Below, in pieces: positions 16,178 through 35,047 of a stretch of 50,150 nt of DNA. A program made the position numbers and the translations under genes. Where the stretch lies: positions 1 to 50,150 of the forward strand of contig WJIJ01000110.1 of NCBI GenBank assembly GCA_014730345.1, in the 5' to 3' direction. The DNA comes from Candidatus Zixiibacteriota bacterium. GTDB taxonomy: Bacteria > Zixibacteria > MSB-5A5 > UM-FILTER-46-8. Below the pieces are notes generated by a model. The model was given only the letters and a program-made list of their open reading frames with translations. It did not search any database and was not told the origin of the DNA. The stretch's first letter is position 1; each line of letters opens with the position of its first letter.

Positions 16178-18214
16178 ATGGATTACAAAAATGCGGCGGA
16201 GATACGTTTAGCGGTAAAAGCAAATCCCGATGACCCCAATATTCTCCGGGAAGCGGCGGAGTATTTCCTGTCAGTAGAACTCTACGACGAATCGATGAAA
16301 TACTGGGCCGATTACAACCGGCTTGTCGGCGGAGACCCCGATGCCCATAAAATAATCGGCGCTTTAAAGGGGAGAATCGGCAATCACCAGAAGGCGAAAG
16401 AACATTTCGAGAAAGCTTTGGCGCTTCGCCCCGATGACCCGGACACCCATTACAACCTGTCATTGACATTGCTCAATCTCGGCGATATCACCGGTTCGAT
16501 CAATCACCTCGCCGAGTCGGTGAAGTTAAATCCCAGGGACCTGACCGCGTGGAACAACCTCGGCGTATTGCTTTTCGAGACTAAAAACCGCAAGGAAGCC
16601 GAAAAATGTTTTCTCACCTGCCTTAATATAGATCCTTTTTACCGGGACGCTTACTTAAACCTGGCGCAATTCGAAGGGCAGTTTGAGAATCCCGATGAAG
16701 TAATTCGATATTTCCGCACTTATCTCGATATCCACAAGGAGGATGAACTCCTCAAAGCGGCATACGAAGTATTCAAGCCGAGGGATGAACCGCGGGAATC
16801 GGTCAATTACAATGGAATTAAAGTATCGCTGGCGGCATTTTCAGATTTTGAAACCGATCCTGAACGCAAGCTTCGCTGGGGCGATTACTGGTTCAAGAAA
16901 GAATTTTCGGAGGCGTTCGAGAGACTGGGATGCGAAGTGGTCGAAAATAACGCCGATTTACTCCTGCATCTCTTCGGCGTACCCATGAATAACCTGCCTT
17001 CAGCGAAAACCCGCGCTATCTGGATCCACAGTCATCCTGATATGGTTTCCGCTGAATTATTAAACAAGTACGATAAGGTTTTCTGTCTTTCGGAACCGTT
17101 TATCCCGCGCATTAAATCGATGGGATTCGACGCTGAGCTTTTAATCGGTGGCACCGGAAAAAAGCCGGTTGAAAAGGCGGAAAAGAAATACGACCTTGTT
17201 TTTGTCGGCAATACCAAGGGAAAATACGGCCGGCGGATTATCCGCGACCTCGGCGGAAACTACCAGGGATTGAAGGTCTGGGGTGAGGGATGGGAGCATA
17301 TCCTCCCGCCCGAAAATATCGAGGGAATATACTTCGAAAACCAGAAATTACCTGAACTTTACGCATCAACGAAAATCTCGCTCAATGACCATCATGATGA
17401 CATGCTCCGAGAAGGTTTCCTTAATCCGCGCGTGTTCGACATCCTCGCGTCCGGCGGGTTCGTTATCTCCGACAAGATGACCGGAATGGACAAACTCTTC
17501 GAGGGCGCGGTTCCCACGTATGAAACCCCGGAAGAACTACAACAACTGATAGATAAATATCTCAACGATGATAAGGCGCGCGAAGAATTGTCCGCGCGAG
17601 GCAGACAGATAGCATTGAAGTATTCGTTCGATTACATGGCATCACAGGTAATGAAATCAATTTACGGGGATTCCACGGACGCAAAAACAGGCATGCCGGC
17701 GAAGAAGATGACATTTAAGCGAAGCGCCGAAAGGAAACCTGTTAATGTGGGCATGGAGCATGAAAAACAATCCTGTGTATTCGGTATAGATGTCTCCGGC
17801 AGGGAGGAATACGAGGTTTTGCCTATCATCAATGGTTTCCGGCTGGTTCATGAGTTCTACAATCAAACCAGACTGCAGGTCATCGGGAACGCGAGTTTCG
17901 ATATAGGCCCCGAGTTAGAGGGAAATGCAAACATCGAGAATGTTCATGACCTGAGCAAATGCGATGTGTTCATCGATTGTTGCCTTAAATACACGGGCGA
18001 ATCGAATACTCCGGAGAACACGCGTTTCCGGTTAACGCCTAATCTCGAAGATGAGTATTATCGTGGTGATGATTGTACCATCCTGAGGATAAACACCCAG
18101 AAAGACATAGAGCTGGGGCGGATCTGGGAATTCAATGACCTGGCATTTAAGCTGGGATTCGCGGCCGAAAACCTGGAAACCATAATCAGCAAATACAAAG
18201 ACGTGCAAATTTAA
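16178..18214 (+). CDS. TPR-CgeB-like glycosyltransferase with extra C-terminal domain
   Basis: This 678-residue cytoplasmic protein has three parts. Residues 1 to about 190 are TPR repeats (for example AKEHFEKALALRPDDPDTHY). Residues about 200-520 are a CgeB-type GT-B glycosyltransferase: FVGNTKGKYGRR near 341, then ISLNDHHDDMLREGFLNPRV and a FDILASGGFVISD strand. About 150 further residues from 528 match no family I recognise; they include CVFGIDVSGREEYEVLP and VHDLSKCDVFIDCCLKY. It is the first gene of the island that ends at flagellin. I infer transfer of a sugar to a protein acceptor held by the TPRs. Donor and acceptor are unproven. Confidence 0.75.
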   Translation: MDYKNAAEIRLAVKANPDDPNILREAAEYFLSVELYDESMKYWADYNRLVGGDPDAHKIIGALKGRIGNHQKAKEHFEKALALRPDDPDTHYNLSLTLLNLGDITGSINHLAESVKLNPRDLTAWNNLGVLLFETKNRKEAEKCFLTCLNIDPFYRDAYLNLAQFEGQFENPDEVIRYFRTYLDIHKEDELLKAAYEVFKPRDEPRESVNYNGIKVSLAAFSDFETDPERKLRWGDYWFKKEFSEAFERLGCEVVENNADLLLHLFGVPMNNLPSAKTRAIWIHSHPDMVSAELLNKYDKVFCLSEPFIPRIKSMGFDAELLIGGTGKKPVEKAEKKYDLVFVGNTKGKYGRRIIRDLGGNYQGLKVWGEGWEHILPPENIEGIYFENQKLPELYASTKISLNDHHDDMLREGFLNPRVFDILASGGFVISDKMTGMDKLFEGAVPTYETPEELQQLIDKYLNDDKAREELSARGRQIALKYSFDYMASQVMKSIYGDSTDAKTGMPAKKMTFKRSAERKPVNVGMEHEKQSCVFGIDVSGREEYEVLPIINGFRLVHEFYNQTRLQVIGNASFDIGPELEGNANIENVHDLSKCDVFIDCCLKYTGESNTPENTRFRLTPNLEDEYYRGDDCTILRINTQKDIELGRIWEFNDLAFKLGFAAENLETIISKYKDVQI

Positions 18215-18235
18215 AATACGCGGGCGGATTTAAAA

Positions 18236-19585
18236 ATGAATAAAGATGATAAATACAGATATAAGGGTAAAAAGATTGCCTGGGTAGGTCCTTTCGAGGG
18301 CGAGCATCAATACGCCCACATGATACAAAAAACACTGGAGAGCCTCGGAGTCGAAGTAATCCCGGTCGATTACCGGATCCAGCGCTCCAATCTCACCAAT
18401 ATCCTTTTAGGCCTCGATGTTGACGCGTTGATCGTTAACCGCGGTGAAGGAATCGATCCGCAGATAATCAGGTCGATGAACTGCCCGACGCTTTTATGGT
18501 ATGGGGAATATATCCACGGCAATGACCAGGCCGCTATTCTCCACCGGCAGGAGCTGTTATACAATGGTTCGGCTTTTGATTATGTTATCTGGGAAGGGTT
18601 TCGGGAAGAACTCTCTATGAGTGTTATGCGCAACCTCGGTTGCTCAAATGTCAGTTATGTTTACCCTAACAGGATTGATAAAGATGTTTACCGCAAAATG
18701 AAAGTCAAAAAGGAATACGATGTTAATTTCATCGGCTCCCTTACTCCCCGCAGGGAGGAATTCCTGAACTATATCATGGAGAAAACGAATTACGAAGTCA
18801 ATTTCACCACGACTTATGATATTGAAGAACAGGTCCGGATTTTCAATGAAAGCCGAATCAACCTGCATATAAATTTCGCTCCTTACCATCTTGAAACAAC
18901 CGTCAACCTGCGCGTATTCGATGTTTTAAGCTGTGGTTGCTTCATGCTCAGCGAGGGGGTGGAACATGATGAAATGTTCAAGGACGGTGAACATCTCGCA
19001 TTTTTTAAGCCTGGTGATAAGGATGACATGGTTCAAAAAATAGATTATTACATTAAAAACAGCCGCGAAAGAAATTCCATAGCGAAACAGGGGCGGAAAT
19101 ATCTCCATGAAAATTATTCAGTTGATGACACGGTATTGGCATTGCTGGATGCCATAGATTTCGAGGGTTTCAGCCGTTCGCTCAGGTTAGAAGAATACGG
19201 CATAGGCACTGATAAATTCGGCATCCCCAGCCGTAATTTTATCAGAATGGGCAACGCCTGTAAAATGATACTTGATGAACGTTATGCCCAGCATCATCAC
19301 ATGTTTGGATTCCGTTTATTTCAAATGGGTGAGTTTGAAGCGGCTATCGATGCCTACTGGCGGGCGTTGAAATTACTGCCCAATAATCCGGCGACTTTGG
19401 ATTTACTGGCGCGCGCGTATGTTAAAATAGATGAAATCAGGGGAGCGGAAGATATAGTGAATAAATTGAGAGCTGTAAATCCTGGATATCCGGGATTAAG
19501 CGAACTTAATCAATTACTCGCCGGTCGCGGGAGTGTTAATAGACTTGAAGGAAATCAAAATTTAACGGAGGTGCATAGTGGTTAA
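18236..19585 (+). CDS. CgeB-like glycosyltransferase with C-terminal TPRs
   Basis: In this 449-residue protein the GT part comes first. An N-terminal Rossmann half opens KIAWVGPFEGEHQYAHMIQK, then VNFIGSLTPRREEF near 163. The donor half has INLHINFAPYHLETTVNLRV and the strand FDVLSCGCFMLSEGVEHDEM typical of CgeB-like (Glyco_trans_1_2) enzymes. From about 352 to 445 there are about two TPRs (GEFEAAIDAYWRALKLLPNN). The order is opposite to that of the upstream gene, where the TPRs come first. Its 3' end overlaps the next gene by 8 bp. Confidence 0.75.
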   Translation: MNKDDKYRYKGKKIAWVGPFEGEHQYAHMIQKTLESLGVEVIPVDYRIQRSNLTNILLGLDVDALIVNRGEGIDPQIIRSMNCPTLLWYGEYIHGNDQAAILHRQELLYNGSAFDYVIWEGFREELSMSVMRNLGCSNVSYVYPNRIDKDVYRKMKVKKEYDVNFIGSLTPRREEFLNYIMEKTNYEVNFTTTYDIEEQVRIFNESRINLHINFAPYHLETTVNLRVFDVLSCGCFMLSEGVEHDEMFKDGEHLAFFKPGDKDDMVQKIDYYIKNSRERNSIAKQGRKYLHENYSVDDTVLALLDAIDFEGFSRSLRLEEYGIGTDKFGIPSRNFIRMGNACKMILDERYAQHHHMFGFRLFQMGEFEAAIDAYWRALKLLPNNPATLDLLARAYVKIDEIRGAEDIVNKLRAVNPGYPGLSELNQLLAGRGSVNRLEGNQNLTEVHSG

Positions 19586-20669
19586 GGTAGCGGTTATAGG
19601 TTGCGGTTACTGGGGACCGAACCTTATCAGGAATTTCAATGAATTGGACAATGCCGAAGTCGCGATGATAAGCGATTTACGCCCGGAAAGACTCAGAACA
19701 ATGTCCGGAAAATACCCAAAGATGCAGGTAACTGTTGATCATAATGAAGTGCTGAACAATCCCGATATCGACGCGGTCGCTCTGGCTACACCGGTGGAAA
19801 CTCATTATCCGCTGGCATCGACAGCCATAAAGAACGGGAAATCGGTATTTATCGAAAAACCCCTCACCGCTTCGGTTAATGAAGCTGAAGAGCTTATTGA
19901 ACTCGCGGAGCGGCACAACCAGAAACTGATGGTCGGTCATACCTTTGTCTACACCGGCGCGGTACGCAAAATAAAGGAATTTATCGATAACCGTGAACTT
20001 GGGAATATCAATTACTTCGACTCGGTTAGGGTCAACCTGGGGCTGTTTCGCCCGACAGTAAATGTCCTCTGGGACCTCGCTCCCCATGACATTTCCATCA
20101 TGGATTACCTGCTCGGTTCCGAGCCCGAATTTGTCAGCGCCGTTGGGGCGTGCCATTCCGGGACCGGTATCGAAAATATCGCCTATATTACTATCCACTA
20201 CCCGGGAAATCTGCTGGCTCATATCCATGTCAACTGGCTGGCTCCGGTGAAACTCCGCAAGGTACTCATCTCAGGCACTAAGAAGATGATTGTCTATGAT
20301 GATACAGAACCGGATGAAAAGGTAAAGGTTTATGACAAGGGTATCATGATAAACGATGATGAAGATAAGATGTATTCGCAGATGGTTGAATACCGCATCG
20401 GCGACATGTACGCTCCCAAGCTGGATACATCCGAAGCCCTGCGCACCGAGTGCGGACATTTCGTGGATTGCATAATCAATGACAAAAAGCCCATTACCGA
20501 TGGTGAAGCGGGCCTGCGCGTGGTGAAAATTCTCCAGGCCGCTCAATTATCGATGGAAAACAACAATGAAAGGGTAGACATAAGATGTATCAGAAAATCA
20601 CCGGCGACGTTAAGCTCGGAAAAGATGTCAAAATCTTCGACTTCGTCAACCTCTATGGCTGCAGTATAG
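19578..20669 (+). CDS. Gfo/Idh/MocA-family NAD(P)-dependent sugar oxidoreductase
   Basis: The N-terminal Rossmann fold starts VAVIGCGYWGPNLIRNF. The consensus EKPLTASVNEAEEL carries the family lysine, and DLAPHDISIMDYLLG marks the C-terminal domain. Beside a WbpD-like acyltransferase and a DegT aminotransferase, the likely step is oxidation of the 3-hydroxyl of a UDP-GlcNAc or UDP-GlcNAcA sugar, as in WbpB or GnnA. The start is GTG, with GGAGG six bases upstream. The last 28 residues are the next gene read in another frame, giving an 85-bp overlap. Homologs usually end near ERVDI, so the overlap or a small indel deserves a check. Confidence 0.82.
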   Translation: MVKVAVIGCGYWGPNLIRNFNELDNAEVAMISDLRPERLRTMSGKYPKMQVTVDHNEVLNNPDIDAVALATPVETHYPLASTAIKNGKSVFIEKPLTASVNEAEELIELAERHNQKLMVGHTFVYTGAVRKIKEFIDNRELGNINYFDSVRVNLGLFRPTVNVLWDLAPHDISIMDYLLGSEPEFVSAVGACHSGTGIENIAYITIHYPGNLLAHIHVNWLAPVKLRKVLISGTKKMIVYDDTEPDEKVKVYDKGIMINDDEDKMYSQMVEYRIGDMYAPKLDTSEALRTECGHFVDCIINDKKPITDGEAGLRVVKILQAAQLSMENNNERVDIRCIRKSPATLSSEKMSKSSTSSTSMAAV

Positions 20670-21085
20670 GGGATAATTCAAAGGTCGGCGCGTTCGTGGA
20701 GATTCAAAAAAACGCGTATGTCGGCAAAAACTGCAAAATTTCCACCCACAGCTTCATTTGCGAAGGTGTTACCATCGAAGATGATGTTTTCGTGGGTCAC
20801 GGAGTGAACTTTATCAACGATAAATACCCCCGGGCTACGGCTGGCGGACAACTCGCAACCGAGGAAGACTGGGAAGTGGTAGCAACCCTCGTAAAAAAGG
20901 GCGCTTCTATCGGCACCGGTTCGACAATACTATGCGGTGTTACTATAGGGGAAAACGCTATAATCGGCGCCGGAAGCGTGGTTACCAAAGATGTTCCCGC
21001 GAACGCAATTGCAGCCGGAGTACCCGCCCGGATAATGAAAACAATCGATGAGGAAGAGGTGGTCTATGAAAGTACCGTTTCTTGA
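20585..21085 (+). CDS. WbpD-like sugar N-acetyltransferase (hexapeptide repeat)
   Basis: This 166-residue left-handed beta-helix acyltransferase has hexapeptide repeats from about residue 8 to 150, the segment ICEGVTIEDDVFVGHGVNFI followed by NDKYPRAT, and the end GAGSVVTKDVPANAIAAGVP. This closely matches WbpD/WlbB, which N-acetylates the 3-amino group of UDP-2-acetamido-3-amino-glucuronate; FdtC/QdtC-type 3-amino sugar acetyltransferases are the alternative. It lies between the oxidoreductase and aminotransferase genes of the same predicted route and overlaps the aminotransferase start by 20 bp. Confidence 0.82.
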   Translation: MYQKITGDVKLGKDVKIFDFVNLYGCSIGDNSKVGAFVEIQKNAYVGKNCKISTHSFICEGVTIEDDVFVGHGVNFINDKYPRATAGGQLATEEDWEVVATLVKKGASIGTGSTILCGVTIGENAIIGAGSVVTKDVPANAIAAGVPARIMKTIDEEEVVYESTVS

Positions 21086-22220
21086 TTTAAAAGCCCAATA
21101 CAAATCAATAGGCAAGAAAATAAAAGACCGGTTTGAATATATTTTTGAGAACACCGCGTTTATTCTCGGGCCGGAAGTTGAAACTTTTGAAAAACATTTT
21201 GCCGAGTGGATCGGCGTTAAGTATTGCCTTGCCTGTAATTCAGGGACATCCGCCCTTCATTTGGCATTGCTTGCCAATGGTATCGGCAAAGGTGATGAGG
21301 TCATAACCGTTCCCAACACTTTCATAGCCACCGCCGAAGCTATTTCATACACAGGCGCAAAACCCGTTTTCGTTGATGTGGACCCGGATACTCTGCTGAT
21401 GTCCCCCAAGCAATTCGAAGGGGCTGTTACTCCCAAAACGAAGGCTGTAATTCCGGTGCATCTTTTCGGGCAGGCTTGTGACATGGCGGCGATTAACACC
21501 ATCGCCCGGGCTAATAATATCGCGGTAATCGAGGATGCCTGCCAGGCGCACGGCGCGGAATACGCCGGTCAGATGCTCGGTTCTTTCGGCAAAGCCGCCG
21601 CGTTCAGTTTCTACCCCGGCAAGAACCTCGGCGCTTATGGCGAGGGTGGAGCAATGGTTACCGATGATGAACAGGCATATCAACGAGCTAAAGCTTTTCG
21701 GGATCATGGACAAACCCGGAAATCTGAGCATACGGTTATCGGGTATAATTACCGAATGGATTCTTTCCAGGGCGCGGTGCTCAATGTGAAACTCAGGAGC
21801 ATGAAGGATTACAGCAATGCCCGCCGTCGTCATGCTCAGCAATACCGTGAACAATTGAGCGGACTGCCTATCCAGCTTGTTGACGAAGAAAACGAAAGCA
21901 AAGGCGTGTACCATCTTTTTGTCATCAGGACAGAACATCGCGATGAGATGCGGGAGTACCTGGGCGCGATGGATATCGGCACGGGAATTCATTATCCCAA
22001 ACCGGTTCATCTTCAGAAAGCTTATGAGCATCTCGAATACCGCCGGGGAGATTTCCCCGTCGCTGAAAAAGCGGCTGACGAGATGGTTTCATTGCCGATG
22101 TTCCCCGAGCTAACTGAGGACCAGGTTCGCTATGTATGTAGCTGTATCCGTAACTTTTTCAAAAACAACAATGCCGATGACCTTTGGATTAAAACCAGGG
22201 AAGAAGCGGTAACGGTTTGA
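21066..22220 (+). CDS. DegT/DnrJ/EryC1-family PLP sugar aminotransferase (WbpE/GnnB-like)
   Basis: A 384-residue sugar aminotransferase beginning MKVPFLDLKAQYKSIGKKI. The PLP lysine is K186 in FYPGKNLGAYGEGG. CNSGTSALHLALLANGIGKG and VIEDACQAHGAEY are the usual PLP-fold segments. With the two preceding genes it would complete oxidation, transamination and acetylation at C3 of a UDP sugar. The ATG at 21066 follows AGGAAGAGGTGG; the in-frame ATG at 21048 lies deeper in the acyltransferase gene and has no site of its own. Confidence 0.88.
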   Translation: MKVPFLDLKAQYKSIGKKIKDRFEYIFENTAFILGPEVETFEKHFAEWIGVKYCLACNSGTSALHLALLANGIGKGDEVITVPNTFIATAEAISYTGAKPVFVDVDPDTLLMSPKQFEGAVTPKTKAVIPVHLFGQACDMAAINTIARANNIAVIEDACQAHGAEYAGQMLGSFGKAAAFSFYPGKNLGAYGEGGAMVTDDEQAYQRAKAFRDHGQTRKSEHTVIGYNYRMDSFQGAVLNVKLRSMKDYSNARRRHAQQYREQLSGLPIQLVDEENESKGVYHLFVIRTEHRDEMREYLGAMDIGTGIHYPKPVHLQKAYEHLEYRRGDFPVAEKAADEMVSLPMFPELTEDQVRYVCSCIRNFFKNNNADDLWIKTREEAVTV

Positions 22221-22238
22221 CAGACGGAGTGCCATGAG

Positions 22239-22988
22239 ATGTTAAACACCGGAATCGACACACAAACATCAAACAGGTTGATGGAATTAGCCGAATTGAG
22301 AGTGGTCCCGGCGGTATCGGCGAACAAACCTCTCGAGGAATCGGATGAGATTTCCCGTTTCGCGGATTACCTCCGGGATTGTTTTGATAAAAATGAACTG
22401 AGTAACCTGTATTTCCAATTCGAACATGCCCATGGACCCTTAGCGGACCTGTACAGAAGCTTAACCTTGCGGGCAATTATAAAATCCTGCGGGATATGCC
22501 TTTCCATCGAGCCCGGCGTTAAATTCAAACATCCGGAGACCTTTGAATTTGGAGATGGCGTTTTCGTAGGAACCAATGTCTTTTTGCAGGGGCGTTTTGA
22601 CGGTGAATTTAAAGTGGGCGACAGGACCTGGCTGGGACCAAATTCATATTACGACTGCCGAGCCCTCGAGATTGGGAGCTATGTCGGAATAGGACCAGGC
22701 GTGAAATTTCTCGGTTCTGAGCATACCGGAACTCCTGTAGAGAAGCCCACCGTAACCACAGATCTCGTAATCCGAAAAACGAAGATAGCGGATAATGTGG
22801 ATATCGGCACAGGCGCCGTTATCCTGCCGGGGATTAAAATCGGTGAGGGCGCGATAATCGGCGCGGGCGCGGTAGTGAACCGGGATATACCCGAATACGC
22901 CGTCGCCGCGGGTGTTCCGGCCAGAATAATAAAATCGAGAATTAACAAAAGTAAACAGGAGAGATGTTTTGGACAAGGGGAAAAATAA
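22239..22988 (+). CDS. Hexapeptide-repeat acyltransferase, second
   Basis: In this 249-residue protein the first 85 residues are helical and not recognised. The rest is a left-handed beta-helix of the WbbJ/maltose-acetyltransferase type: GDGVFVGTNVFLQG, then DIGTGAVILPGIKIGEGAII and GAVVNRDIPEYAVAAGVPAR. It probably acylates an amino or hydroxyl group of the island's sugar, at a different position from the WbpD-like enzyme. The start has GGAG nine bases upstream. The 3' end overlaps the next gene by 20 bp. Confidence 0.72.
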   Translation: MLNTGIDTQTSNRLMELAELRVVPAVSANKPLEESDEISRFADYLRDCFDKNELSNLYFQFEHAHGPLADLYRSLTLRAIIKSCGICLSIEPGVKFKHPETFEFGDGVFVGTNVFLQGRFDGEFKVGDRTWLGPNSYYDCRALEIGSYVGIGPGVKFLGSEHTGTPVEKPTVTTDLVIRKTKIADNVDIGTGAVILPGIKIGEGAIIGAGAVVNRDIPEYAVAAGVPARIIKSRINKSKQERCFGQGEK

Positions 22989-23967
22989 TCTTAGGGGTTC
23001 AAGGATACTAATCACCGGGGGAGCGGGTTTGATAGGCTCGCATATCGCCGACCTTTGCGTTCAAAAAGAAGCGGGCGAGGTTATAGTTCTGGACAATTTC
23101 ACCCGCGGCCGGAGGGAAAACCTCGATTGGGCCGCGAACTGCGGAAATGTAACTATTATTGAAGGCGATATAAGAGATCCGGAAATGCTCATGGAAGCCA
23201 CCCGCCACGTTGACTATATATTTCACCAGGCGGCGATCCGGATTACAGCTTGTGCCGAATTTCCGCGCGGAGCAATGGATGTCATGGTCAATGGCACATT
23301 TAATGTCCTTGATGCCGCCGCGCGCAACAATGTCAAGAAAGTGGTTGCCGCGTCTTCAGCGTCAATCTATGGTATGGCCGAGGAATTCCCCACGACTGAG
23401 GAACATCATCCATATAACAATGACACCATATACGGCGCATTTAAAATGGCAAACGAAGGGATGCTGAAATCGTTCTACGCCATGTACGGCCTTGAATACA
23501 CAGCGCTCAGGTATTTCAATGTTTACGGTCCGCGTATGGACGTATTTGGGGCATACACCGAAGTAATGATACGCTGGCTTGATGCCATCGACCAATGGGT
23601 GCCTCCGAAAATATTCGGTTCCGGTGAACAGACCATGGATTTTGTATATGTCGGCGATGTCGCCCGGGCTAATGTACTGGCAATGGAAGCCCGCGGCGTT
23701 AACACCGCCCTGAATGTAGCTTCCGGTACTGAAACCAGTTTGAAGGGACTCCTTGATAAGATGCTGGCTATTACTGGTTCGACCATAAATCCGGAATATC
23801 ATCCCGAACGCAAGGTAAACCCGGTACCCCGGAGATTAGCAGACACATCCCGCGCCGAACTCGAGATTGGGTTTAAAGCCGAAACATCCCTTGAGGATGG
23901 ATTGTCAGAACTTATCAATTGGCGCGAGGGAGTTAAAAACTCGAAACAAAATTTGGTGTTAAAATGA
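22969..23967 (+). CDS. NAD-dependent nucleotide-sugar epimerase/dehydratase (extended SDR)
   Basis: This 332-residue extended short-chain dehydrogenase has the NAD-binding GGAGLIGSH near the N-terminus, SSASIYG for the catalytic serine, IYGAFKMANE giving Y-x3-K, and ALRYFNVYGPRM near the sugar site. It resembles UDP-glucose 4-epimerase-like enzymes; the exact sugar and reaction (4-epimerase or other) cannot be read from sequence. The start is TTG, with AGGAGAG about six bases upstream inside the acyltransferase gene. Its stop overlaps the next ATG (ATGA). Confidence 0.82.
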   Translation: MDKGKNNLRGSRILITGGAGLIGSHIADLCVQKEAGEVIVLDNFTRGRRENLDWAANCGNVTIIEGDIRDPEMLMEATRHVDYIFHQAAIRITACAEFPRGAMDVMVNGTFNVLDAAARNNVKKVVAASSASIYGMAEEFPTTEEHHPYNNDTIYGAFKMANEGMLKSFYAMYGLEYTALRYFNVYGPRMDVFGAYTEVMIRWLDAIDQWVPPKIFGSGEQTMDFVYVGDVARANVLAMEARGVNTALNVASGTETSLKGLLDKMLAITGSTINPEYHPERKVNPVPRRLADTSRAELEIGFKAETSLEDGLSELINWREGVKNSKQNLVLK

Positions 23968-25133
23968 AAATACCATTGACCAAACCATATTTATCGCAGG
24001 AGGAGGAGAACGCCGCTTCTGAAGTGATCCGCTCGGGCTGGTTAACTCAGGGACCGAGAGTAGCCGAGTTGGAGAGAAAGCTCGTTGATTATATCGGCTG
24101 CAGGGACGCAGTCGCCGTCTCCTCCTGTACTACTGCCCTTTATCTGTGTCTAATCGCCGCCGGCATTGGCGATGGCGATGAGGTTATCTGCCCCGCGTAT
24201 ACATTTATCGCCACCCCGAATTCAATTGTCCACGCCGGTGCTAAACCGGTATTCGTGGACATTGACCCGGCGACATACAATCTCGATCCGAACCTTATCG
24301 AGGATACTATAACCAATAGAACTAAGGCGATAATGCCCGCATACCAGGGAATGGCATCCGGAACCGATGAGATAAATGAAATCGCGCGTAAGCACAACCT
24401 GGCGGTAATCGAGGATGCCGCTCCCGCAATAGGAGCGCTATACAAAGGCCGTAAGGTCGGTTCTGAAAGTTTCCTTTCATGTTTCAGCCTGCACCCCCGC
24501 AAAGTTATCACCGCCGGAGAAGGAGGATTGATAACCACAAATGACCCGGAGACGGGTAAAAAACTAAGGAAACTGCGCCATCATTATATGTCCGTCACCG
24601 ACCTCGAACGCCACAAAAGCGATGATTTGATCTTTGAAAGTTACCCCGAGGTAGGTTATAACTTCCGTATGACCGATATCCAGGCCGCAATCGCCTCGGT
24701 GCAAATCGACCGGCTTGAGGGTTTAATAGTCAAGCGCAGGGAACTTGCCTATCGTTACAATGAAGCATTCGGGAAAATTAATTGGGTTTCGGTTCCTGTT
24801 AATGACGAAAATCATTATAATACCTATCAATCCTACATGATACGTCTTTCCCCGGAAGCTCCGGTTTCCAGGGACAATATTATGAAGGGATTGATGAAAG
24901 CCCAGATTGCCTCCCGCCGGGGCTTTATCAGCTGTCATAAGGAATCGTATTACAGGAAAATGTATCCGGATCTGACTTTAAAGAACAGCGAATATTGCAC
25001 TGATAACTGTATCATCCTGCCGCTCTTTCCGGCAATGACCAGGCGCGAGCAGGATTATGTAATCGAGAACTTCAAGAGGATAGCCAGTGAAAGTACTGTT
25101 GATACACCCGCCCTCGCGGGAAGTCTACGATAA
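23964..25133 (+). CDS. DegT/DnrJ/EryC1-family PLP sugar aminotransferase, second
   Basis: This 389-residue protein begins MKIPLTKPYLSQEEENAA. It has the substrate-side segment VIRSGWLTQGPRVAELE, typical of ArnB/PglE/PseC-like aminotransferases, VIEDAAPAIGALYKGRKVGS, and PLP lysine K180 in SLHPRKVITAGEGG. It is only distantly like the aminotransferase at 21066, so the island can place two amino groups, probably at different carbons (C3 and C4). The CapE/FnlA-type dehydratase at 28640 would supply a 4-keto sugar. The 3' end overlaps the radical SAM gene by 47 bp. Confidence 0.86.
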   Translation: MKIPLTKPYLSQEEENAASEVIRSGWLTQGPRVAELERKLVDYIGCRDAVAVSSCTTALYLCLIAAGIGDGDEVICPAYTFIATPNSIVHAGAKPVFVDIDPATYNLDPNLIEDTITNRTKAIMPAYQGMASGTDEINEIARKHNLAVIEDAAPAIGALYKGRKVGSESFLSCFSLHPRKVITAGEGGLITTNDPETGKKLRKLRHHYMSVTDLERHKSDDLIFESYPEVGYNFRMTDIQAAIASVQIDRLEGLIVKRRELAYRYNEAFGKINWVSVPVNDENHYNTYQSYMIRLSPEAPVSRDNIMKGLMKAQIASRRGFISCHKESYYRKMYPDLTLKNSEYCTDNCIILPLFPAMTRREQDYVIENFKRIASESTVDTPALAGSLR

Positions 25134-26431: not shown

Positions 26432-28630
26432 ATGATAAGAAAAGCTGACCCTGGAATATTTGGAGCCGCCCGCTCATTGATGCAGAGCGGCGATTTTCGG
26501 AGCGCCGAAACGCTTTTAAAAAACTTAGTTGCCGATTACCCAGATGACCCCAACGTTGCCTGCGCCATGGCCGATTGTTATGCGGGTATGCCAGATTATG
26601 AATCGGCGGAATACTGGTACAGGAGAGCCGTTTCTATACAGCCATATAATCCCCAATTGGGCTTAAGCTACAATCGGTTTCGAATTGCCAACCTGCGTAA
26701 ACTCCCCCAGGACCGGCCTAAGTTTTTAATCGGCCCCCTGATGGGAGCGGCTTATTTTTTCGCTAATTACGCCGACTGCGTATTTTACGGTTCCAATAAC
26801 CCGGTTCAGAATGATCCGACCCAGATTCAATCCGGTATATATTCAGATATCAGTAATATTATTAAAAACTGCCCGAATGGATTTACTCCGGAAAAAATCA
26901 TCTGTATGATTCCCGAATACAACTCGCCTCCGGCCGGAATTGAGGACTGCGGGATAGAAACAGTAGGCGTTTACACGGACCTCCCCGCCCACTCGGAAAT
27001 GATTGCGTTAACGGCGCCATTATTTGATATATGTCTTACCCAGGGATTTCATGATGGCCCCGATATGCTTTTAAGGCTTGGGGCGCGGAAGTCCGGGACA
27101 GGATTTTTTATCGGCGATGACCCGCTTTTCTGGAGAGATACTAACAATCAAAGGGATATCGATATCCTGTTCCTGTCGACTTTCCAGGTCCCGCACCTAT
27201 ATAGAGGCCGGAACAGAATCATTAATGAACTGGTGAAACTGACAGATAAATACAAAATCGTTATCGGTACCGAAAACCAGAAAAATTCAGCGGAATTATC
27301 CACACGCGCGAAAATTGTCATCAACTCATCCCATTCCGGGGAACTAACCTCCGAGATGATAGCGCGGCGAATATTCGAGAGTATGAGTTGTGGCGCGCTA
27401 TGTTTCGCCGAGGAAAATATCGAGGTAGTCAAGCATTTCTACAAGGATAAATCGGAGATTGTCTATTATAATCCGGAAAACCTTTTGCCGCTTCTGGAAA
27501 GCTATCTGAAAAGCGACAGCGAACGACAGCGTATTGCAGAATCAGGCAAAAAGAAAACCATCTCGGAATATACTTATGCCCGCAACATAGAGAAAATATT
27601 TTACCTGGTGAAGGCGGAGCATGGCTATCGCATTTCGGATACTAACCGCAAGATTCACAAAGCCGAGTATAACCTCCGAAGGGCAAGGTCACTGTTCTAT
27701 TCGCATACCCAGAGGAACTATAACCAGATAAATAACCTTTTAAAATCCGCGGGAGACCAGGATCCGGCATTTGAATCCGAGTGCGAGAACGATCTCGCCG
27801 TTGTTTCCGCTTACGCTTTGGGAATAAGAGATTCTGAAGGAAAATTCCGTAAAATCGACAGCGCAGAAAACCCCATATTGTTCGCCAACGCGGTTATCTC
27901 CGAACTTGCCGGAAATCATATTGATTCAGCTTTGAAATTGATGGCCATGGGAATTCCCTCTTACAAAAACGGAATAAATTTTGGCCTTCCGCTTTATCTT
28001 GTAATGAGCAGGGACGGACTGATCCCCCCGGAAAGACATACTTCGAGTATTTACTACATTAAAATCCAGGAAGCATACTTGCAGTATCCGCTATTGGATG
28101 ATGGCTTTAAAGGGCGGATTCAAAAAATAGTAGAGGCTGAATTGAATAAGCAGGCAGGTAGTTCACTATGCGCGATTGAAAAGTACGAGGAAGCTATCTC
28201 TATGATGGAAACGGCTGTGGAAGAATATGCCAATGATTATCAACTCCACCATCAATTGAGTATCGCTTATCATGAAACCGGAAAGATAGAGAAGGCGCTC
28301 GAATTATCCCGAAAGGCATGCGAGCTACTGCCGTTGAATATCGAATACAGGTATACCTATTGCAAAATCCTCTATATGTTGGAAAACTATGAGGAAATTT
28401 TCGAAACTGCCGATTCCTTATTAAAGGCGGATATTCGCATCGAAGGAAGTTTAGTACCGATTGTATTGATGCGCAATGCCGCGGCGGAAAAAATAAAACA
28501 TCCTGACGCGGATAAATATATTAATGACTTCCTCTCCAATACAGAATTGAGCGAAAGCGATTTTGAACTATTGGGAGATACCGGAAGAGAAATTTTAGAT
28601 AAATGGCGACAACTATCCTCTAAACAATGA
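26432..28630 (+). CDS. TPR-CgeB-like glycosyltransferase flanked by TPRs on both sides
   Basis: This 732-residue protein has N-terminal TPRs over about 1-90 (SAETLLKNLVADYPDDPNVA). The GT-B core runs from about 120 to 410, with DILFLSTFQVPHLYRGRNRI near 243 and the donor-side helix MIARRIFESMSCGALCFAEE near 320. After a helical linker there is a second TPR block at about 567-685 (KYEEAISMMETAVEEYANDY). I chose the ATG at 26432, just after the previous stop; the frame is also open upstream inside the radical SAM gene, but without a site. Probable cytoplasmic protein glycosyltransferase. Confidence 0.72.
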   Translation: MIRKADPGIFGAARSLMQSGDFRSAETLLKNLVADYPDDPNVACAMADCYAGMPDYESAEYWYRRAVSIQPYNPQLGLSYNRFRIANLRKLPQDRPKFLIGPLMGAAYFFANYADCVFYGSNNPVQNDPTQIQSGIYSDISNIIKNCPNGFTPEKIICMIPEYNSPPAGIEDCGIETVGVYTDLPAHSEMIALTAPLFDICLTQGFHDGPDMLLRLGARKSGTGFFIGDDPLFWRDTNNQRDIDILFLSTFQVPHLYRGRNRIINELVKLTDKYKIVIGTENQKNSAELSTRAKIVINSSHSGELTSEMIARRIFESMSCGALCFAEENIEVVKHFYKDKSEIVYYNPENLLPLLESYLKSDSERQRIAESGKKKTISEYTYARNIEKIFYLVKAEHGYRISDTNRKIHKAEYNLRRARSLFYSHTQRNYNQINNLLKSAGDQDPAFESECENDLAVVSAYALGIRDSEGKFRKIDSAENPILFANAVISELAGNHIDSALKLMAMGIPSYKNGINFGLPLYLVMSRDGLIPPERHTSSIYYIKIQEAYLQYPLLDDGFKGRIQKIVEAELNKQAGSSLCAIEKYEEAISMMETAVEEYANDYQLHHQLSIAYHETGKIEKALELSRKACELLPLNIEYRYTYCKILYMLENYEEIFETADSLLKADIRIEGSLVPIVLMRNAAAEKIKHPDADKYINDFLSNTELSESDFELLGDTGREILDKWRQLSSKQ

Positions 28631-28639: not shown

Positions 28640-29737
28640 ATGTATAAAGGCAAAACTGTCCTGGTGACCGGGGGAACGGGTTCGTTCGGTCATTATATTG
28701 TTAAAGAGCTGATGAGAAAAGACCCCGCCGAGATACGCATCTTCAGCCGCGATGAGAAAAAGCAGGATGACATGCGTTATAAGTACCGCCACATGGACAA
28801 TCTGCGGTTCATTATAGGCGACGTGCGCAACAGCGAAAGCCTTATGAATGCTGTTCGCGGCTCCGATATGATATTTCACGCGGCGGCATTAAAACAGGTC
28901 CCCAGTTGCGAATATAACGTCCATGAAGCGGTTTTGACCAATATTATCGGCGGCAAGAATGTTATCGATTGCGCGATTGAGGAAAATGTCGAAAAAGTTA
29001 TCGCGGTTTCCACCGACAAGGCGGTCAAACCGGTTAATACCATGGGCATGACCAAGGCGTTGCAGGAAAAGCTCATGATATGGGCGAACCTGAATAAAAA
29101 CGGGTGCAGAACGGTTTTCGCCGCCGTTCGCTATGGCAACGTGGTCGGCTCACGCGGCTCGGTTGTGCCGCTCTTCAAAAAGCAGATCGAGGAGGGCGGA
29201 CCGTTGACTATTACCGACCCGGAAATGACCAGGTTTATCCTTACCCTGGAACAGGCGGTTAAGCTGGTTTTTAAAGCCGCCGAAGAAGCTGTCGGCGGGG
29301 AGATATTCGTGATGAAGATACCGTCGGTCAAAATTGGAAACCTCGCCGATGTTATGCTCTCCAGCGTACCGGAGTCGCTTCGCCCGGATGTTAAAATCTC
29401 CGGCATCCGCCCCGGGGAAAAAATTGATGAAGTGCTGGTTTCCGAGGAAGAAGCTTTCCGCACTATCGACATGGGCGATTACTATTGCATTCTACCGGCA
29501 GTCGATATTCCCGTGGTTAGGGAACGATACAGGGACGTTCCCTTTGTCAATATTACCGAATATACCTCCGGCAATACCGAAAGATACAGCGATGAGAACA
29601 TGGTGCGACTGCTCGACAGCGAGGGATGGATGCCCACTGTAAGGTCCATCATGGTAAAAAGAGGTTTGAGTGAAGATGATACCAGTCTACGGAGCATAAA
29701 CCGAAATCGAATCATCAGGGAGATGGAGACGCTGTGA
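28640..29737 (+). CDS. UDP-GlcNAc 4,6-dehydratase, CapE/FnlA-type (MxxxK)
   Basis: A 365-residue polysaccharide-biosynthesis SDR. VLVTGGTGSFGHYIVKELM binds NAD(P); RIFSRDEKKQDDMRYKY, AAALKQVPSCE and AVSTDKAVKP are hallmarks of the FlaA1/PseB/CapE group. The catalytic Y-x3-K is M-x3-K here (M135 to K139 in TMGMTK). This is the known feature of the 5-inverting CapE/WbjB/FnlA branch, which leads to L-FucNAc-type sugars, and not of PseB. VPLFKKQIEEGGPLTITDP and ISGIRPGEKIDEVL also fit. The product would be a UDP-4-keto-6-deoxy-hexose for the island's aminotransferase. Confidence 0.85.
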   Translation: MYKGKTVLVTGGTGSFGHYIVKELMRKDPAEIRIFSRDEKKQDDMRYKYRHMDNLRFIIGDVRNSESLMNAVRGSDMIFHAAALKQVPSCEYNVHEAVLTNIIGGKNVIDCAIEENVEKVIAVSTDKAVKPVNTMGMTKALQEKLMIWANLNKNGCRTVFAAVRYGNVVGSRGSVVPLFKKQIEEGGPLTITDPEMTRFILTLEQAVKLVFKAAEEAVGGEIFVMKIPSVKIGNLADVMLSSVPESLRPDVKISGIRPGEKIDEVLVSEEEAFRTIDMGDYYCILPAVDIPVVRERYRDVPFVNITEYTSGNTERYSDENMVRLLDSEGWMPTVRSIMVKRGLSEDDTSLRSINRNRIIREMETL

Positions 29738-32559
29738 CTAAAAACAAATCTAATAGCAAAAAACGTAAATTAGCAATAAAGAAAAAGAATAAAGATGTAT
29801 TCCCGCGCAAAGAGCTAAAAGCCATCGACAAACTCGAGAAGATGATGGAGGCGGGGGACTACTCGGGCATAAAACGCGCGGTTAAGAAAACCATATACAA
29901 GGAACTAACCAATAAGGTTTTGCGCGAAAGGGCGGTATACCTTGGGGCATTCGCCATTACGTCACTGAACGAACCTAATGCGGCCCTTCGACTTCTAAGG
30001 GAGCATGTCTTCATCCCCGATAATGTAGACAGGGAATATCTGTATACTTATTTGTTATTGAAAGTAAACGAACCGGAAGCTGTCATCAAGCATGGCTCGA
30101 GATACCTGCGGTTTTATAGAAACGAACCCGAATACAGCAATTCCGAATTCAACCGCACAAATATTCGCAACAGGCACGAGGTGCATAATTTCCTGGCCCT
30201 TGCCTATAAAAAGATGTTTCTCGCCGAAAAAGCAATCCGGGAATTTAAATATGCTATCAGGTTTAAAAACGATTATGAAGAATCAATATTGAACCTCATA
30301 TCCCTTTTGATCGAGAATAACCGTTTCGCCGAAAGCGAAGAGTTATGTGATAAGTACCGGGATGTACTCCAAAATAATCCCCAGTTGGAAAGCCTGCACG
30401 CGATTGCCGTATTTGGCAGTGGAGAGACAGAAACGGGCGAAAAATTGCTCAATCGTCTTCTCGAGAAATACCCGGATTCGCCCGATGCTATCCTCAACCT
30501 GGGTGTTATGTACCAGAAAACCGGCGACTATAACAAAGCCCGTGAATATTACCTCAAAGCCAGGGAAATAGCCCCTGAACATAGAGGAGTGATTGAAAAC
30601 CTCTTCAAACTCGAGGTAAATCACTTCGGTAAAGAACCAGCAATTTCCCTGTGCATGATAGTCAAAAATGAAGAAGACAATATTGCCCGATGCCTTAATT
30701 CGATTAAAGATGTAGTAGACCAGATGGTTGTGGTCGATACCGGTTCCACCGACCGTACCGCGGAAATTGCCGGGGAAATGGGAGCGGAAGTATATCATCA
30801 CCCGTGGAGGAATTCATTCTCGGAGGCAAGAAACAACTCCATAAAGTATGCTACCGGCGACTGGATAATCTACCTCGATGCCGATGAAGAGCTTTTTGAA
30901 GAGGATAAGGAAAAACTGCGCCAGGCGGCAAGAGACACTAATTCTAACGCGGTTTCCATACAAATTTTCAACCCGACTCACGGTAAACAGCAGGGTTACC
31001 TTAGATTTACGAGAATGTGGAGGAATCACCTCGGCTTCCATTTTGAGGGAATCGTTCATAACCAGCTTGTATACGACGGTTTCGTAAACGAAAGCGATGT
31101 CCGCATACGGCATTATGGCTACGGTTATGAAAAAGAGAAAATGGAGAAGAAGTATGAAAGATCTTCCGCTCTTTTATTGGAACAATTAGAAGAAAACCCG
31201 GATAACACATTCGCCTTGTTCAATCTGGCTCAGATCAGGAGGGGCCAGCAGAATCATGAAGAAGTGATCAAATATGCCAGCAGGCTGACTGAGCTGATTA
31301 ACGAAAAAACCCGAGGCCAACTCCATCTTTACCTGATGGGTCTCGACCAGCTTTGCACATCCCATTTCTTCCTGAAAGATTACCGGAAATCTATTGAATT
31401 TGGCAAAAAGGCGTTAAAAGTCAAGCCTGACTATTTCGATCCAATGTTGACTATCGCGTCAGCATATACAGCCATTGAAGATTTTGAGCAGGCTCTGCAT
31501 TATTACAACCTGTTTTTAGAAACCATCGATAGCTTCGATCCTGAGAAAGAAAAGGTAAACCTGATTTTAAACAATCTCGGTTCTGAATATTATGCTTACT
31601 ATGGCATCGGAGCGATTTACCGCCGGATGAAACGCTATAAAGAAGCCGAGAAATACTTATTGAAAGTTTCCGAACAGGTCGAAAACCACCTCAAATTGCA
31701 CTTTGAACTTGGACAATTAGCGTTCGATAGAAAAGACTATCAGGCCGCCAAAAAGGAATTCGAACTCGACCTGCGGTATAATAAAGACAGCAGTGAATCG
31801 CACTTTATGCTTGGTGAAGTACTGGCAATAACCGGTGAAAAGAAAAACGCTCTGCCATATTATAAAATGGCTGTTGAATTGGGTCTGGAAAGCCCGGTTG
31901 CCCTGTTTAAATACGCCGAAACTCTCAGCGAGTTAAACCGCTTCGATGAAGCTAAAACAGCGATAGAAACACTAATCGAAAAGTATCCTGACTTCTCATC
32001 CGCCTATCGAGTGAAGGGCAATATCGATTTCCAGTTAAAAGATTATAAATCCGCAGTTTCCGCGTATCAGAAGTTTTTAACGGATAATCCGGAGGATTAC
32101 AAAATAATAAGCAACCTCGGAAACAGCCACCTTAAAAACGGCGACTACGAAGATGCCATTAGAAGTTATGACTTGGCCCTTAATATAAAACCGGACTGTG
32201 CCATAAACTATCTCAACCTGGCAATTTGCTACAAGGAAATGGACAGGTGGAGCGAAGCGGTTGCTAATTTCAAGCGTTACGCCGACTTAAATCCCACCGA
32301 TACAGATATTTTTGTAGCTATCGCCGACTGCCTCGCTTCCGATGAAAGATACACGGAAGCTATAAGCTACTACGAAAAATACCTTTCGCGCAATCCAGGC
32401 GATTACCTGGCGATATTTAAGATGTCAGAATGCTACCGTATCCAGGGAGCGTTGGATGCCGCTGATTTGGGTTATAATGCTGTTTTGAAAATGAATCCTG
32501 AATTCGAACCCGCTAAAAGAATGAAATTGATGCTATCTGGCGAAGCGGCAAAAGCTTAA
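29734..32559 (+). CDS. Large TPR protein with embedded GT2 glycosyltransferase domain
   Basis: This 941-residue protein has TPRs over about 60-300. A GT-A family 2 domain starts near 303 (ISLCMIVKNEEDNIARCLNS), with VVDTGSTDRTAEIA and the metal-binding YLDADEE near 379. About 15 TPR-like helix pairs run from about 480 to the end (AIRSYDLALNIKPDCAINYL, for instance). The N-terminus is strongly basic (KNKSNSKKRKLAIKKKNK). No signal or membrane segment was seen. The start is GTG in a GTGA overlap. As the last gene before fliC, it is the best candidate in the island for direct recognition of flagellin, by analogy with TPR-containing flagellin glycosyltransferase FlmG of Caulobacter. Confidence 0.8.
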   Translation: MTKNKSNSKKRKLAIKKKNKDVFPRKELKAIDKLEKMMEAGDYSGIKRAVKKTIYKELTNKVLRERAVYLGAFAITSLNEPNAALRLLREHVFIPDNVDREYLYTYLLLKVNEPEAVIKHGSRYLRFYRNEPEYSNSEFNRTNIRNRHEVHNFLALAYKKMFLAEKAIREFKYAIRFKNDYEESILNLISLLIENNRFAESEELCDKYRDVLQNNPQLESLHAIAVFGSGETETGEKLLNRLLEKYPDSPDAILNLGVMYQKTGDYNKAREYYLKAREIAPEHRGVIENLFKLEVNHFGKEPAISLCMIVKNEEDNIARCLNSIKDVVDQMVVVDTGSTDRTAEIAGEMGAEVYHHPWRNSFSEARNNSIKYATGDWIIYLDADEELFEEDKEKLRQAARDTNSNAVSIQIFNPTHGKQQGYLRFTRMWRNHLGFHFEGIVHNQLVYDGFVNESDVRIRHYGYGYEKEKMEKKYERSSALLLEQLEENPDNTFALFNLAQIRRGQQNHEEVIKYASRLTELINEKTRGQLHLYLMGLDQLCTSHFFLKDYRKSIEFGKKALKVKPDYFDPMLTIASAYTAIEDFEQALHYYNLFLETIDSFDPEKEKVNLILNNLGSEYYAYYGIGAIYRRMKRYKEAEKYLLKVSEQVENHLKLHFELGQLAFDRKDYQAAKKEFELDLRYNKDSSESHFMLGEVLAITGEKKNALPYYKMAVELGLESPVALFKYAETLSELNRFDEAKTAIETLIEKYPDFSSAYRVKGNIDFQLKDYKSAVSAYQKFLTDNPEDYKIISNLGNSHLKNGDYEDAIRSYDLALNIKPDCAINYLNLAICYKEMDRWSEAVANFKRYADLNPTDTDIFVAIADCLASDERYTEAISYYEKYLSRNPGDYLAIFKMSECYRIQGALDAADLGYNAVLKMNPEFEPAKRMKLMLSGEAAKA

Positions 32560-32779: not shown

Positions 32780-35047
32780 ATGGCATTACGTATTAACCAC
32801 AACGTAACCGCCCTCGACGCCTGGCGTAATCTTACCCTTACTACAGGTTCCATGCAGAATTCCATGGAAAAGCTGTCGTCCGGTTACAGAATTAACAAGG
32901 CCGCCGATGACCCGGCCGGCTTGGTTATCAGTGAGCAGTTCCGGGCCCAGATCGCAGGTTTGAATCGCGCTATCCAGAACTCCGAAGGTAGCATCAACAT
33001 GATCCAGACCGCTGAAGGCGCCCTCACTGAAATTAACAGCCTTCTGGTAAGCATGAGAGAGCTTGCTATCCATGCCGCCAACGAAGGTCTCAACGACGAA
33101 AACCAGCTTTTGGCTGACCAGTCGGAAATCTCCAACTCCATCAAGACCATCAACAGAATTGCCGCCAATACCCAGTTCGGCACCAAGATGTTGCTCGATG
33201 GTTCCGCGGACAACGTTTCCACCATCACCACCGGCAATACCTCTGGCTTGAACCTGAAGGAATCCGGATTGTCCGACGGCGTTCACAGTATTTCCGCCAC
33301 CAAGGTTACAGATCCTTCGGCTACTTTCAATACCACTTCTCTTGGTATCAAGAGCCCGGAATATGTCAACAAGATGGCTGGTGGCATTCATAATGTTGAT
33401 GTTGTTCAGGCTTCCGACGGCGCGACCAAAACCACTAACGCTATTCAGATTCGCGATGCCTGGAACAACGGTTTAAGGCTTCTGGACGGCGCCGCTACCG
33501 TAGCTAAAATTACCGGTACAATGGCTGCTGCCGCCAACAGCCTCGGCGATACCGCAACCGTTTCATTCCAGTTGAACTACCAGGAATCTATCGATGGACC
33601 GGTTGGCGTGCAGACCCTTACCTTCAATATTACCGCCCCTGCCACGAACATGTCCGCTACCATGTCCGCGCGCGTTATTACTGAAGGTTTGAACAGCGCT
33701 ATCTCCAATAACACCGAACTCGCCGGTAAGGTTATCGCCAGTGTAGCCGCTACCGGACAGATGGCGATTAAATCCGTCGATTCCGGCGCGCAGTATTCAG
33801 TTATGGCCGCCGCCATGAATACTTCCGGTAACATCACCTTCAACTGGAGCGCCCAGTCAATAATTGGTGATTCCGGACGCGGCGCTTCGGCTGATGATAC
33901 TTTGACTGTCAATGCCCTGGTCGCGACCGCCGGCGGAGGTGACAACACTTACGCCGCCCAGGCTCTTGACCTGGTTTCGGCCGCTACCACCATTGTCAAC
34001 GAAGCCCAGTTGCTGAAGATCGTTGCCACCCAGATGAGGCAGACTTTCGGTACCGTTCATGGTGATTCCACCGCTTCGGGCGCAAACGCCCTTGCCAGGA
34101 TCTCCGTGGCTACCACTACCACCGCCGAAGGTCACACTGCTCTGGTATTCAAGACCAGGGATGAAGGCTCGCACTTCTACCTTGGATTCAATGAAAGCTC
34201 TTCAGCTTCCAGCCGCACCAGCCTCGCCTTCGGTATTGACCCTGATGGCGTCAATATTACCGGTCAGGACGCGTTGGTCTCTGTTGATGGCTATATCAAC
34301 ACCATAGACGAGGTGCGCTATTACGAAAATAGCACCTCCGACCTGGTAACATATACCCTTTATGATGGTTCTGACACCTCGACCCGCGGAAGCTTCCAGA
34401 TTACTGTCGAGAACGGCAAGACTTACGGTGGAATAAACGTTGGCAACATCCTCATGGATGTTGAAGCCGCGACATTCTCGGTAAGGCTCGACGGCGGACC
34501 GGAGTACAACGTAACCGCCGGGGAATGGACCACGCTGTTCAACGCCAGCGGTGAAGAATCCATTAAGGTCAAGTACGACCTCGATTCGCAGGGCGGAACC
34601 GAAAGAATCAGGAATACCGACCAGTCCCTGGTCTTCCAGATCGGCGCTAATGTCGGCCAGACCAGCAAGATCGGTATCCTGAACATGAACGCCAGCTATC
34701 TCGGTCAGAACGTAACCGGCAACCAGTTCAACTCACTGGCTGATATCGATGTTACTTCCGCCGAGAAAGCCTCCGATGCCCAGGCTGTAATCGATGCCGC
34801 CATCGACGAGGTAACCAACCTCCGCGGTAATCTCGGTTCGTTCCAGCGCAATACTCTGGAATCTAACCTGACCAACTTGAGAATCGCTTCTCAGAACCTG
34901 ACTGCCGCGGAAGCTACTATCCGCGACACCGATATGGCTCTGGAGATGAGCAACTTCGTACGCAACCAGATCCTGCTTCAGGCTGGTACTTCGATGTTGG
35001 CTCAGGCGAACCAGGTTCCCCAGGTGGTTCTCTCGCTCTTCAGGTAA
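32780..35047 (+). CDS. fliC: Flagellin, large (755 aa)
   Basis: This is the filament subunit. The conserved N-terminal D0/D1 part (MALRINHNVTALDAWRNLTL; LSSGYRINKAADDPAGLVIS) spans about 1-165 and the C-terminal one about 655-755, ending AEATIRDTDMALEMSNFVRN then QILLQAGTSMLAQANQ and a final LSLFR. The roughly 490 residues between are Ser/Thr/Ala/Gly-rich and unrelated to common flagellins. They would form the exposed outer domains, a rich target for O-glycosylation by the enzymes encoded directly upstream. A strong AAGGAGG lies 7 bases before the ATG. A sigma-28 promoter and a 160-nt leader precede it, and a long hairpin follows. Confidence 0.96.
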   Translation: MALRINHNVTALDAWRNLTLTTGSMQNSMEKLSSGYRINKAADDPAGLVISEQFRAQIAGLNRAIQNSEGSINMIQTAEGALTEINSLLVSMRELAIHAANEGLNDENQLLADQSEISNSIKTINRIAANTQFGTKMLLDGSADNVSTITTGNTSGLNLKESGLSDGVHSISATKVTDPSATFNTTSLGIKSPEYVNKMAGGIHNVDVVQASDGATKTTNAIQIRDAWNNGLRLLDGAATVAKITGTMAAAANSLGDTATVSFQLNYQESIDGPVGVQTLTFNITAPATNMSATMSARVITEGLNSAISNNTELAGKVIASVAATGQMAIKSVDSGAQYSVMAAAMNTSGNITFNWSAQSIIGDSGRGASADDTLTVNALVATAGGGDNTYAAQALDLVSAATTIVNEAQLLKIVATQMRQTFGTVHGDSTASGANALARISVATTTTAEGHTALVFKTRDEGSHFYLGFNESSSASSRTSLAFGIDPDGVNITGQDALVSVDGYINTIDEVRYYENSTSDLVTYTLYDGSDTSTRGSFQITVENGKTYGGINVGNILMDVEAATFSVRLDGGPEYNVTAGEWTTLFNASGEESIKVKYDLDSQGGTERIRNTDQSLVFQIGANVGQTSKIGILNMNASYLGQNVTGNQFNSLADIDVTSAEKASDAQAVIDAAIDEVTNLRGNLGSFQRNTLESNLTNLRIASQNLTAAEATIRDTDMALEMSNFVRNQILLQAGTSMLAQANQVPQVVLSLFR

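Follow-up and report, generated by a model that had tools for sequence, protein, structure and literature searches.

The window analysed here is an entire contig (G000:C28, 50,150 bp) of a 3.58-Mb metagenome-assembled genome of Candidatus Zixiibacteriota. On its forward strand, 12 co-directional genes lie between miaA with an energy-coupling factor (ECF) transporter gene and the flagellar genes fliC-flaG-fliD-fliS. This run encodes four soluble glycosyltransferases with tetratricopeptide repeats (TPRs), here called GTa, GTb, GTc and GTd, and eight sugar-nucleotide or related enzymes; domain content bears out the initial annotation, which had described four TPR glycosyltransferases and sugar-nucleotide genes directly upstream of flagellin. 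We consider it reasonably probable that the run is a cytoplasmic flagellin-glycosylation island, in which the four TPR transferases dock on unexported FliC to build a sugar coat, with GTd probably acting first.

The transferases differ in fold and in TPR placement. Domain matches and a structure model indicate that GTa (16178..18214) joins an N-terminal TPR array to a CgeB-like GT-B domain (PF13524) and a C-terminal alpha/beta region; GTb (18236..19585) is a PF13524 GT-B protein with a short C-terminal TPR; GTc (26432..28630) has TPRs on both sides of a PF13524 GT-B domain; and GTd (29734..32559) is a TPR-GT2-TPR protein with a GmaR/SunS-like core. No transmembrane segments are predicted in any of the four, and the island proteins include no flippase, polymerase, ligase or membrane glycosyltransferase family. 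The gene for FliC, the proposed acceptor (32780..35047), starts after a gap of 220 bp; its product has 755 residues and was initially annotated as an unusually large flagellin, but this size is normal for the phylum, and the proposed tie between the island and a large flagellin was dropped. FlaG (35116..35505), the filament cap FliD (35633..37948) and the flagellin chaperone FliS (38009..38440) are encoded downstream.

GTd and its linkage to flagellin

Among solved proteins, GmaR is nearest in sequence to the core of GTd (22ao; E 7.1e-33, with 72/183 aligned residues, 39%, identical), and SunS is the second nearest; GTd scores 99.2 bits against the SunS model TIGR04195 of NCBIfam, below the cut-off of 350. 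A TPR superhelix is present C-terminal to the GT2 core, as in GmaR-like enzymes. The GT2 DxD-type motif is kept, and D382 and D384 are invariant both in 15/15 homologues from the phylum and in 18/18 of a more distant set that includes the window's own copy. SunS glycosylates cysteine; S-linked glycosylation of this type is ruled out for the FliC of the window, which contains 0 cysteines (as do 49 of the 53 FliCs compared). The system differs in this respect from SunS and ThuS, which are S-glycosyltransferases by their PDB titles, and the sugar would instead be attached to serine or threonine. GmaR of Listeria likewise has a GT2 domain followed by TPR helices, and it transfers N-acetylglucosamine (GlcNAc) to flagellin in addition to having an antirepressor function (PMC9638930; here and below, published systems are described from the available portions of the papers). 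GTd differs from it in an extra, long N-terminal TPR array and in its three companion TPR glycosyltransferases.

A search with the GT2 core of GTd covered 118 genomes of the phylum, including that of the window, and its result was compared with a flagellin search of the same genomes. With an orthologue threshold of at least 160 bits, GTd is present in 88 of the 99 flagellin-bearing genomes and in one of the 19 that lack flagellin (Fisher p 7.5e-13, shared ancestry being ignored). In each of families f3, f8 and f9, GTd accompanies flagellin in some genomes, and one genome or more has neither (G039 of f9, counted as lacking GTd, has just a 75-bit match). This pattern looks like repeated joint loss of GTd and flagellin, and it leaves the co-occurrence less exposed to the objection of shared ancestry. 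One of the 11 apparent absences (G110) is a GTd truncated by a contig end. Weak matches in G088 and G094 proved to be stand-alone GT2 proteins of 256 residues without scored TPRs, and were rejected as GTd.

Physical linkage was counted from the best 89 flagellin matches (lower ones, which include FlgL-type proteins and small flagellins, being excluded) and from GTd matches of at least 167.9 bits (those of 91 bits or less being excluded). GTd and a large FliC share a contig in 72 of the 89 GTd genomes and are on separate contigs in 10; the other seven have no large FliC among the matches used. For 69 of the 72 same-contig cases, fliC follows the glycosyltransferase core on the same strand at a distance of 1.1-2.9 kb. 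Three cases deviate: genes are inserted over about 14 kb in G028 and about 7 kb in G048, and in G093 GTd is split, so that its C-terminal TPR part still adjoins fliC and its glycosyltransferase part is 1.36 Mb distant. Two loci (L179 and L193) encode a single TPR polypeptide with two GT2 cores (1464 and 1467 residues) directly upstream of fliC.

The usual order in most families is flgK (~464 residues), a flgL-like gene (~640 residues), a FliW-like gene (158 residues), optional genes, GTd, fliC, fliD and fliS. Gene calls in these neighbourhoods are longest open reading frames (ORFs) picked with home-made hidden Markov models (HMMs); the names flgK, flgL and fliW were assigned by gene order and sequence, and the flgL-like gene was recognised by its size or by a weak match to flagellin. 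The flgK-flgL-fliW-like genes of the window's genome are on another contig (C198); no GTd was found within the next 3.2 kb there, and the single GTd adjoins fliC, so GTd has moved or stayed with fliC. Together, the GmaR-like core, the phylum-wide linkage to fliC and the co-absence with flagellin make flagellin the likely, and a well-supported, substrate of GTd.

Relatives of GTd are also found outside the phylum. A set of 79 loci from named genomes was taken as the best 79 of at least 529 confirmed candidates and is not a random sample; many of its contigs are short. A flagellin-N-domain gene is present in the flanking DNA of 28 of these loci, and in 25 of the 75 not titled Zixiibacteriota, although FlgL may account for the weakest two matches (L126 and L136; 18 and 34 bits). 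Loci with both genes include members of Planctomycetota, Scalindua, Syntrophaceae, Desulfobacterales, Chloroflexi and Gemmatimonadota; Paenibacillus, Caldanaerobacter and Desulfacinum also have a GTd relative and flagellin in one neighbourhood.

GT-B transferases and sugar-nucleotide genes

GTa resembles the protein O-glycosyltransferases OGT and SPINDLY (SPY) in its layout, a TPR superhelix joined to a GT-B fold (Foldseek E 1.7e-16, with a whole-chain template-modelling score of just 0.26); it differs from them in that its GT-B domain is PF13524/CgeB-like. Structural matches that VIA-align does not list for either model are excluded from the evidence. Compared by domain order, GTa is also like FlmG of Caulobacter, with an N-terminal TPR followed by GT-B and no membrane segment (PMC7591256). 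This order is seen in GTa alone; the TPR of GTb is C-terminal, and GTc has TPRs on both sides. FlmG differs further in that it uses pseudaminic acid and acts alone (PMC7591256); the island of the window has several enzymes and lacks NeuB. In Maf-1, a further point of likeness, a C-terminal TPR serves flagellin choice (as cited in PMC13317340). A search of the window's genome for PF01973 (MptE-like/Maf) gave no match, and neither did bacterial controls. Homologues of GTb adjoin GTa in L039 and L041, and some GTa relatives elsewhere are fusions with sulfotransferase or methyltransferase domains. Residues 530-678 of GTa (window 17765-18214) make up the C-terminal alpha/beta region, for which the structure prediction is of mixed confidence.

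The sugar-nucleotide genes begin with a Gfo/Idh/MocA dehydrogenase similar to UDP-GlcNAc 3-dehydrogenase (19578..20669), which scores 189.8 bits with NF040723 (cut-off 450) and matches no PDB sequence at 1e-25. Next are a hexapeptide N-acetyltransferase (20585..21085; WxcM-like structures 4mzu and 3mqg), a QdtB/WbpE-like DegT aminotransferase (21048..22220), a second hexapeptide acyltransferase (22239..22988), an NAD-dependent sugar epimerase/dehydratase (22969..23967) and a PseC/ArnB-like DegT aminotransferase that scores under the PseC cut-off (23964..25133). A B12-binding radical S-adenosylmethionine (SAM) enzyme (25087..26430), which adjoins GTc in 4/4 genomes of the window's family, f1, could C-methylate a sugar or flagellin or another protein. 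Between GTc and GTd is a PseB/FnlA-like UDP-GlcNAc 4,6-dehydratase (28640..29737), under both curated cut-offs and with 4j2o as its nearest solved structure (E 4.3e-95).

The dehydrogenase, acetyltransferase and WbpE/QdtB-like aminotransferase would together yield a 2,3-diacetamido sugar, and the dehydratase with the PseC/ArnB-like aminotransferase a 2-acetamido-4-amino-4,6-dideoxy-type sugar. Among the matches listed, no island sugar enzyme passes a curated equivalog cut-off, so we infer the exact sugars. Pseudaminic acid is a possible donor, given the PseB- and PseC-like genes of the island, but one that gene content does not support: NeuB is absent from the island proteins, and the genome's only match to it is on contig C116. 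That locus (L210) also encodes a CTP transferase, a further DegT protein, two formyltransferase-like proteins, and Wzz- and Wza-type proteins. The nonulosonic acid genes of Caulobacter are likewise scattered, judged by locus tag (PMC7591256), so a NeuB outside the island is weak evidence against an FlmG-like donor supply. Flagellin islands of Geobacillus are similar in having up to five glycosyltransferases (GT2 and GT4) and sugar-nucleotide genes beside flagellin; they differ in that TPR has 0 occurrences in the main text describing them (PMC5109656).

TPR enzymes upstream of fliC in other families

Other families carry different TPR enzymes between the flgL-like gene and fliC. GTd is present in 75 of 80 loci read, and 56 of these are readable back to the flgL-like gene; by home-made HMM criteria, a second large TPR or glycosyltransferase gene occupies this slot in 30 of the 56, and none was found in 26. 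Pfam confirmed TPR with GT-B in 6/6 slot genes scanned, two of which have an added GT2 domain, and a further TPR-GT2 in 2/2. The GT-B domains of these slots match PF13692 and PF00534 in addition to PF13524 or with higher scores than it, and were not retrieved from the 118 genomes by GTa or GTc core searches; these differences suggest that TPR GT-B proteins were recruited repeatedly to the slot upstream of fliC.

In G028 (C12, ~62001-88000; L048 and L199), fliC is separated from two TPR-GT2 genes by genes for adenosine 5′-phosphosulfate (APS) kinase, a carbamoyltransferase, a GDSL protein and a TPR-sulfotransferase. The same stretch encodes a protein of 1667 residues with pyruvyl transferase, GT2, CheR-like and other methyltransferase, and GT4 domains. 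This is the one genome with a TPR-sulfotransferase in the slot, and its locus possibly makes a sulfated flagellin glycan. In families f9 and f15 (L047:8490-10202, L140, L145, L149 and L150), a TPR protein of 555-593 residues, an epimerase and a DegT protein precede GTd; Pfam finds just TPRs in the two of five such TPR proteins scanned, and they are perhaps divergent transferases.

The site is reduced in G019 (96% complete; L055/L200). Where its congeners G030 and G057 carry GTd and a GT-B gene before fliC, G019 retains just a TPR remnant of GTd of 320 residues, and the GT-B gene is gone as well. Natural loss of flagellin glycosylation is a possible explanation, as is an assembly error.

Proposed pathway and alternatives

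In the pathway that we propose, the island's sugar genes would supply UDP-activated amino sugars, as homology of the two DegT proteins, the Gfo/Idh dehydrogenase, the acetyltransferases and the PseB-like enzyme suggests. The TPR superhelix of GTd would hold FliC, and an N-acetylhexosamine-type sugar would be put on serine or threonine. Less securely, GTa, GTb and GTc may then lengthen the GTd glycan or modify further sites, with the TPRs of each enzyme as its guide, and FliS would receive the modified subunit for export. The initial annotation named flagellin, or several filament proteins, as the target of the TPR glycosyltransferases; flagellin is well supported as the substrate of GTd, and for GTa, GTb and GTc it is plausible and moderately supported, because GTa and GTc are specific to one family and GTa is found off the flagellar block in two of the four f1 genomes.

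Several observations weigh against this pathway. G114 (74% complete) has GTd and no detected flagellin, and ten or eleven flagellated genomes have no GTd match, several of them being incomplete. Over 39 loci, the distance matrix of GTd correlates with that of FliD at 0.90 and with that of FliC at 0.86, which gives no indication that GTd co-evolves specifically with FliC. In the middle region of FliC, conserved positions amount to 13/99 for serine and threonine versus 28/106 for alanine and glycine, and a conserved glycosylation-site signature was sought there and not found. GTa and GTc each occur in just 4/118 genomes of the phylum, all of family f1. (TPR proteins crowd the first pass of a full-length GTa search, in which just 10 candidates were scored per genome, and it was therefore replaced by a search with the glycosyltransferase core alone; the outcome was alike for both queries.) Finally, two f1 genomes have GTa apart from the flagellar genes. 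The GTa-GTb-Gfo-Hex-DegT module of G087 does not adjoin fliC and is ended by an opposite-strand gene, and a third contig carries DegT-radicalSAM-GTc. In G024, the flagellar block has an opposite-strand gene before it, and GTa is encoded on a different contig. The GTd of G114 itself (L190, C133) is followed by a 175-residue ORF and thrS, with no fliC there.

The separability of GTa in G087 and G024, and of GTb in G087, together with the restriction of GTa and GTc to f1 and the sulfotransferase and methyltransferase fusions among GTa relatives, would fit a division of labour in which GTd alone modifies flagellin, and GTa, GTb, GTc and the sugar genes act on a surface glycan or on an S-layer, pilus or secreted protein, their position here being accidental. 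We regard this as possible and rather doubtful. GTa and GTc co-occur with GTd and flagellin in 4/4 f1 genomes; the PseB-GTd-fliC order, with the PseB-like gene directly upstream of GTd, is kept in all four and is preceded directly by GTc in three; and other TPR glycosyltransferases occupy the same slot in other families.

That slot, bounded by the flgL-like gene and fliC, could also mean that each filament protein (FliC, FlgL, FliD and FlgK) has its own TPR glycosyltransferase, rather than a single glycan being built stepwise, and the serine/threonine fraction of FliD (0.217) matches that of FliC (0.199). This arrangement is unlikely, given that GTd stays next to fliC when the flgL-like gene lies apart, and that by the home-made criteria 26 of the 56 loci have no second large TPR or glycosyltransferase gene. 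The antirepressor role of GmaR besides glycosylation (PMC9638930) might suggest that GTd serves chiefly in regulation or as a chaperone of flagellin, with a relic transferase domain, and the TPR remnant of G019 could fit either reading. This is improbable, D382 and D384 being invariant in near and distant homologues alike. A capsule or O-antigen locus adjoining flagellar genes by chance is very improbable, for although such sugar-nucleotide genes are also used for O-antigens, the island has no flippase, polymerase, ligase or membrane glycosyltransferase family, the Wza/Wzz-type and NeuB genes are on C116, a soluble TPR-GT2 is tied to fliC across the phylum, and the contrary case named in the initial annotation, island relatives without flagella or beside capsule genes, was not encountered, flagellin being present in each of the four genomes that carry GTa and GTc.

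TPR-guided flagellin glycosylation is itself known from FlmG, GmaR and Maf-1 (PMC7591256; PMC9638930), and GT2 and TPR proteins of a Clostridium sporogenes flagellar island have already been proposed as flagellin transferases (PMC13317340). The Clostridium proposal concerns single islands; phylum-wide fixed linkage and a mixture of GT-A, GT-B and sulfotransferase enzymes do not appear in the available text of that paper. A search of titles and abstract openings, with subscription literature mostly outside its reach, found no study of flagellin glycosylation in Zixibacteria and no flagellin TPR-sulfotransferase. As far as this literature search shows, the new element is a near-universal and physically fixed TPR-GT2 of a phylum, with other TPR enzymes stacked around it.

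Tentatively, we suggest that TPR docking is a shared address tag for flagellin, and that unrelated enzymes (GT-A, several GT-Bs, GT-B/GT2 fusions and a sulfotransferase fed by APS kinase) have each gained TPRs beside fliC in Zixibacteria and many other phyla. They may form a swappable cytoplasmic line in which the GmaR-like TPR-GT2 is the fixed initiator, and from which flagellin would receive, before export, a glycan that differs between lineages and is sometimes sulfated. If so, a TPR and transferase pair beside flagellin would be a practical predictor of flagellin-modifying enzymes, and the prediction could be tested in cultured relatives that have TPR-GT2 and flagellin in one neighbourhood (Paenibacillus, Caldanaerobacter and Desulfacinum). 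One TPR flagellin transferase looks like a near-core flagellar gene of the whole phylum, to which other TPR enzymes were added lineage by lineage; bacterial protein O-glycosylation would then be buildable as an OGT-like docking line, without a lipid carrier.

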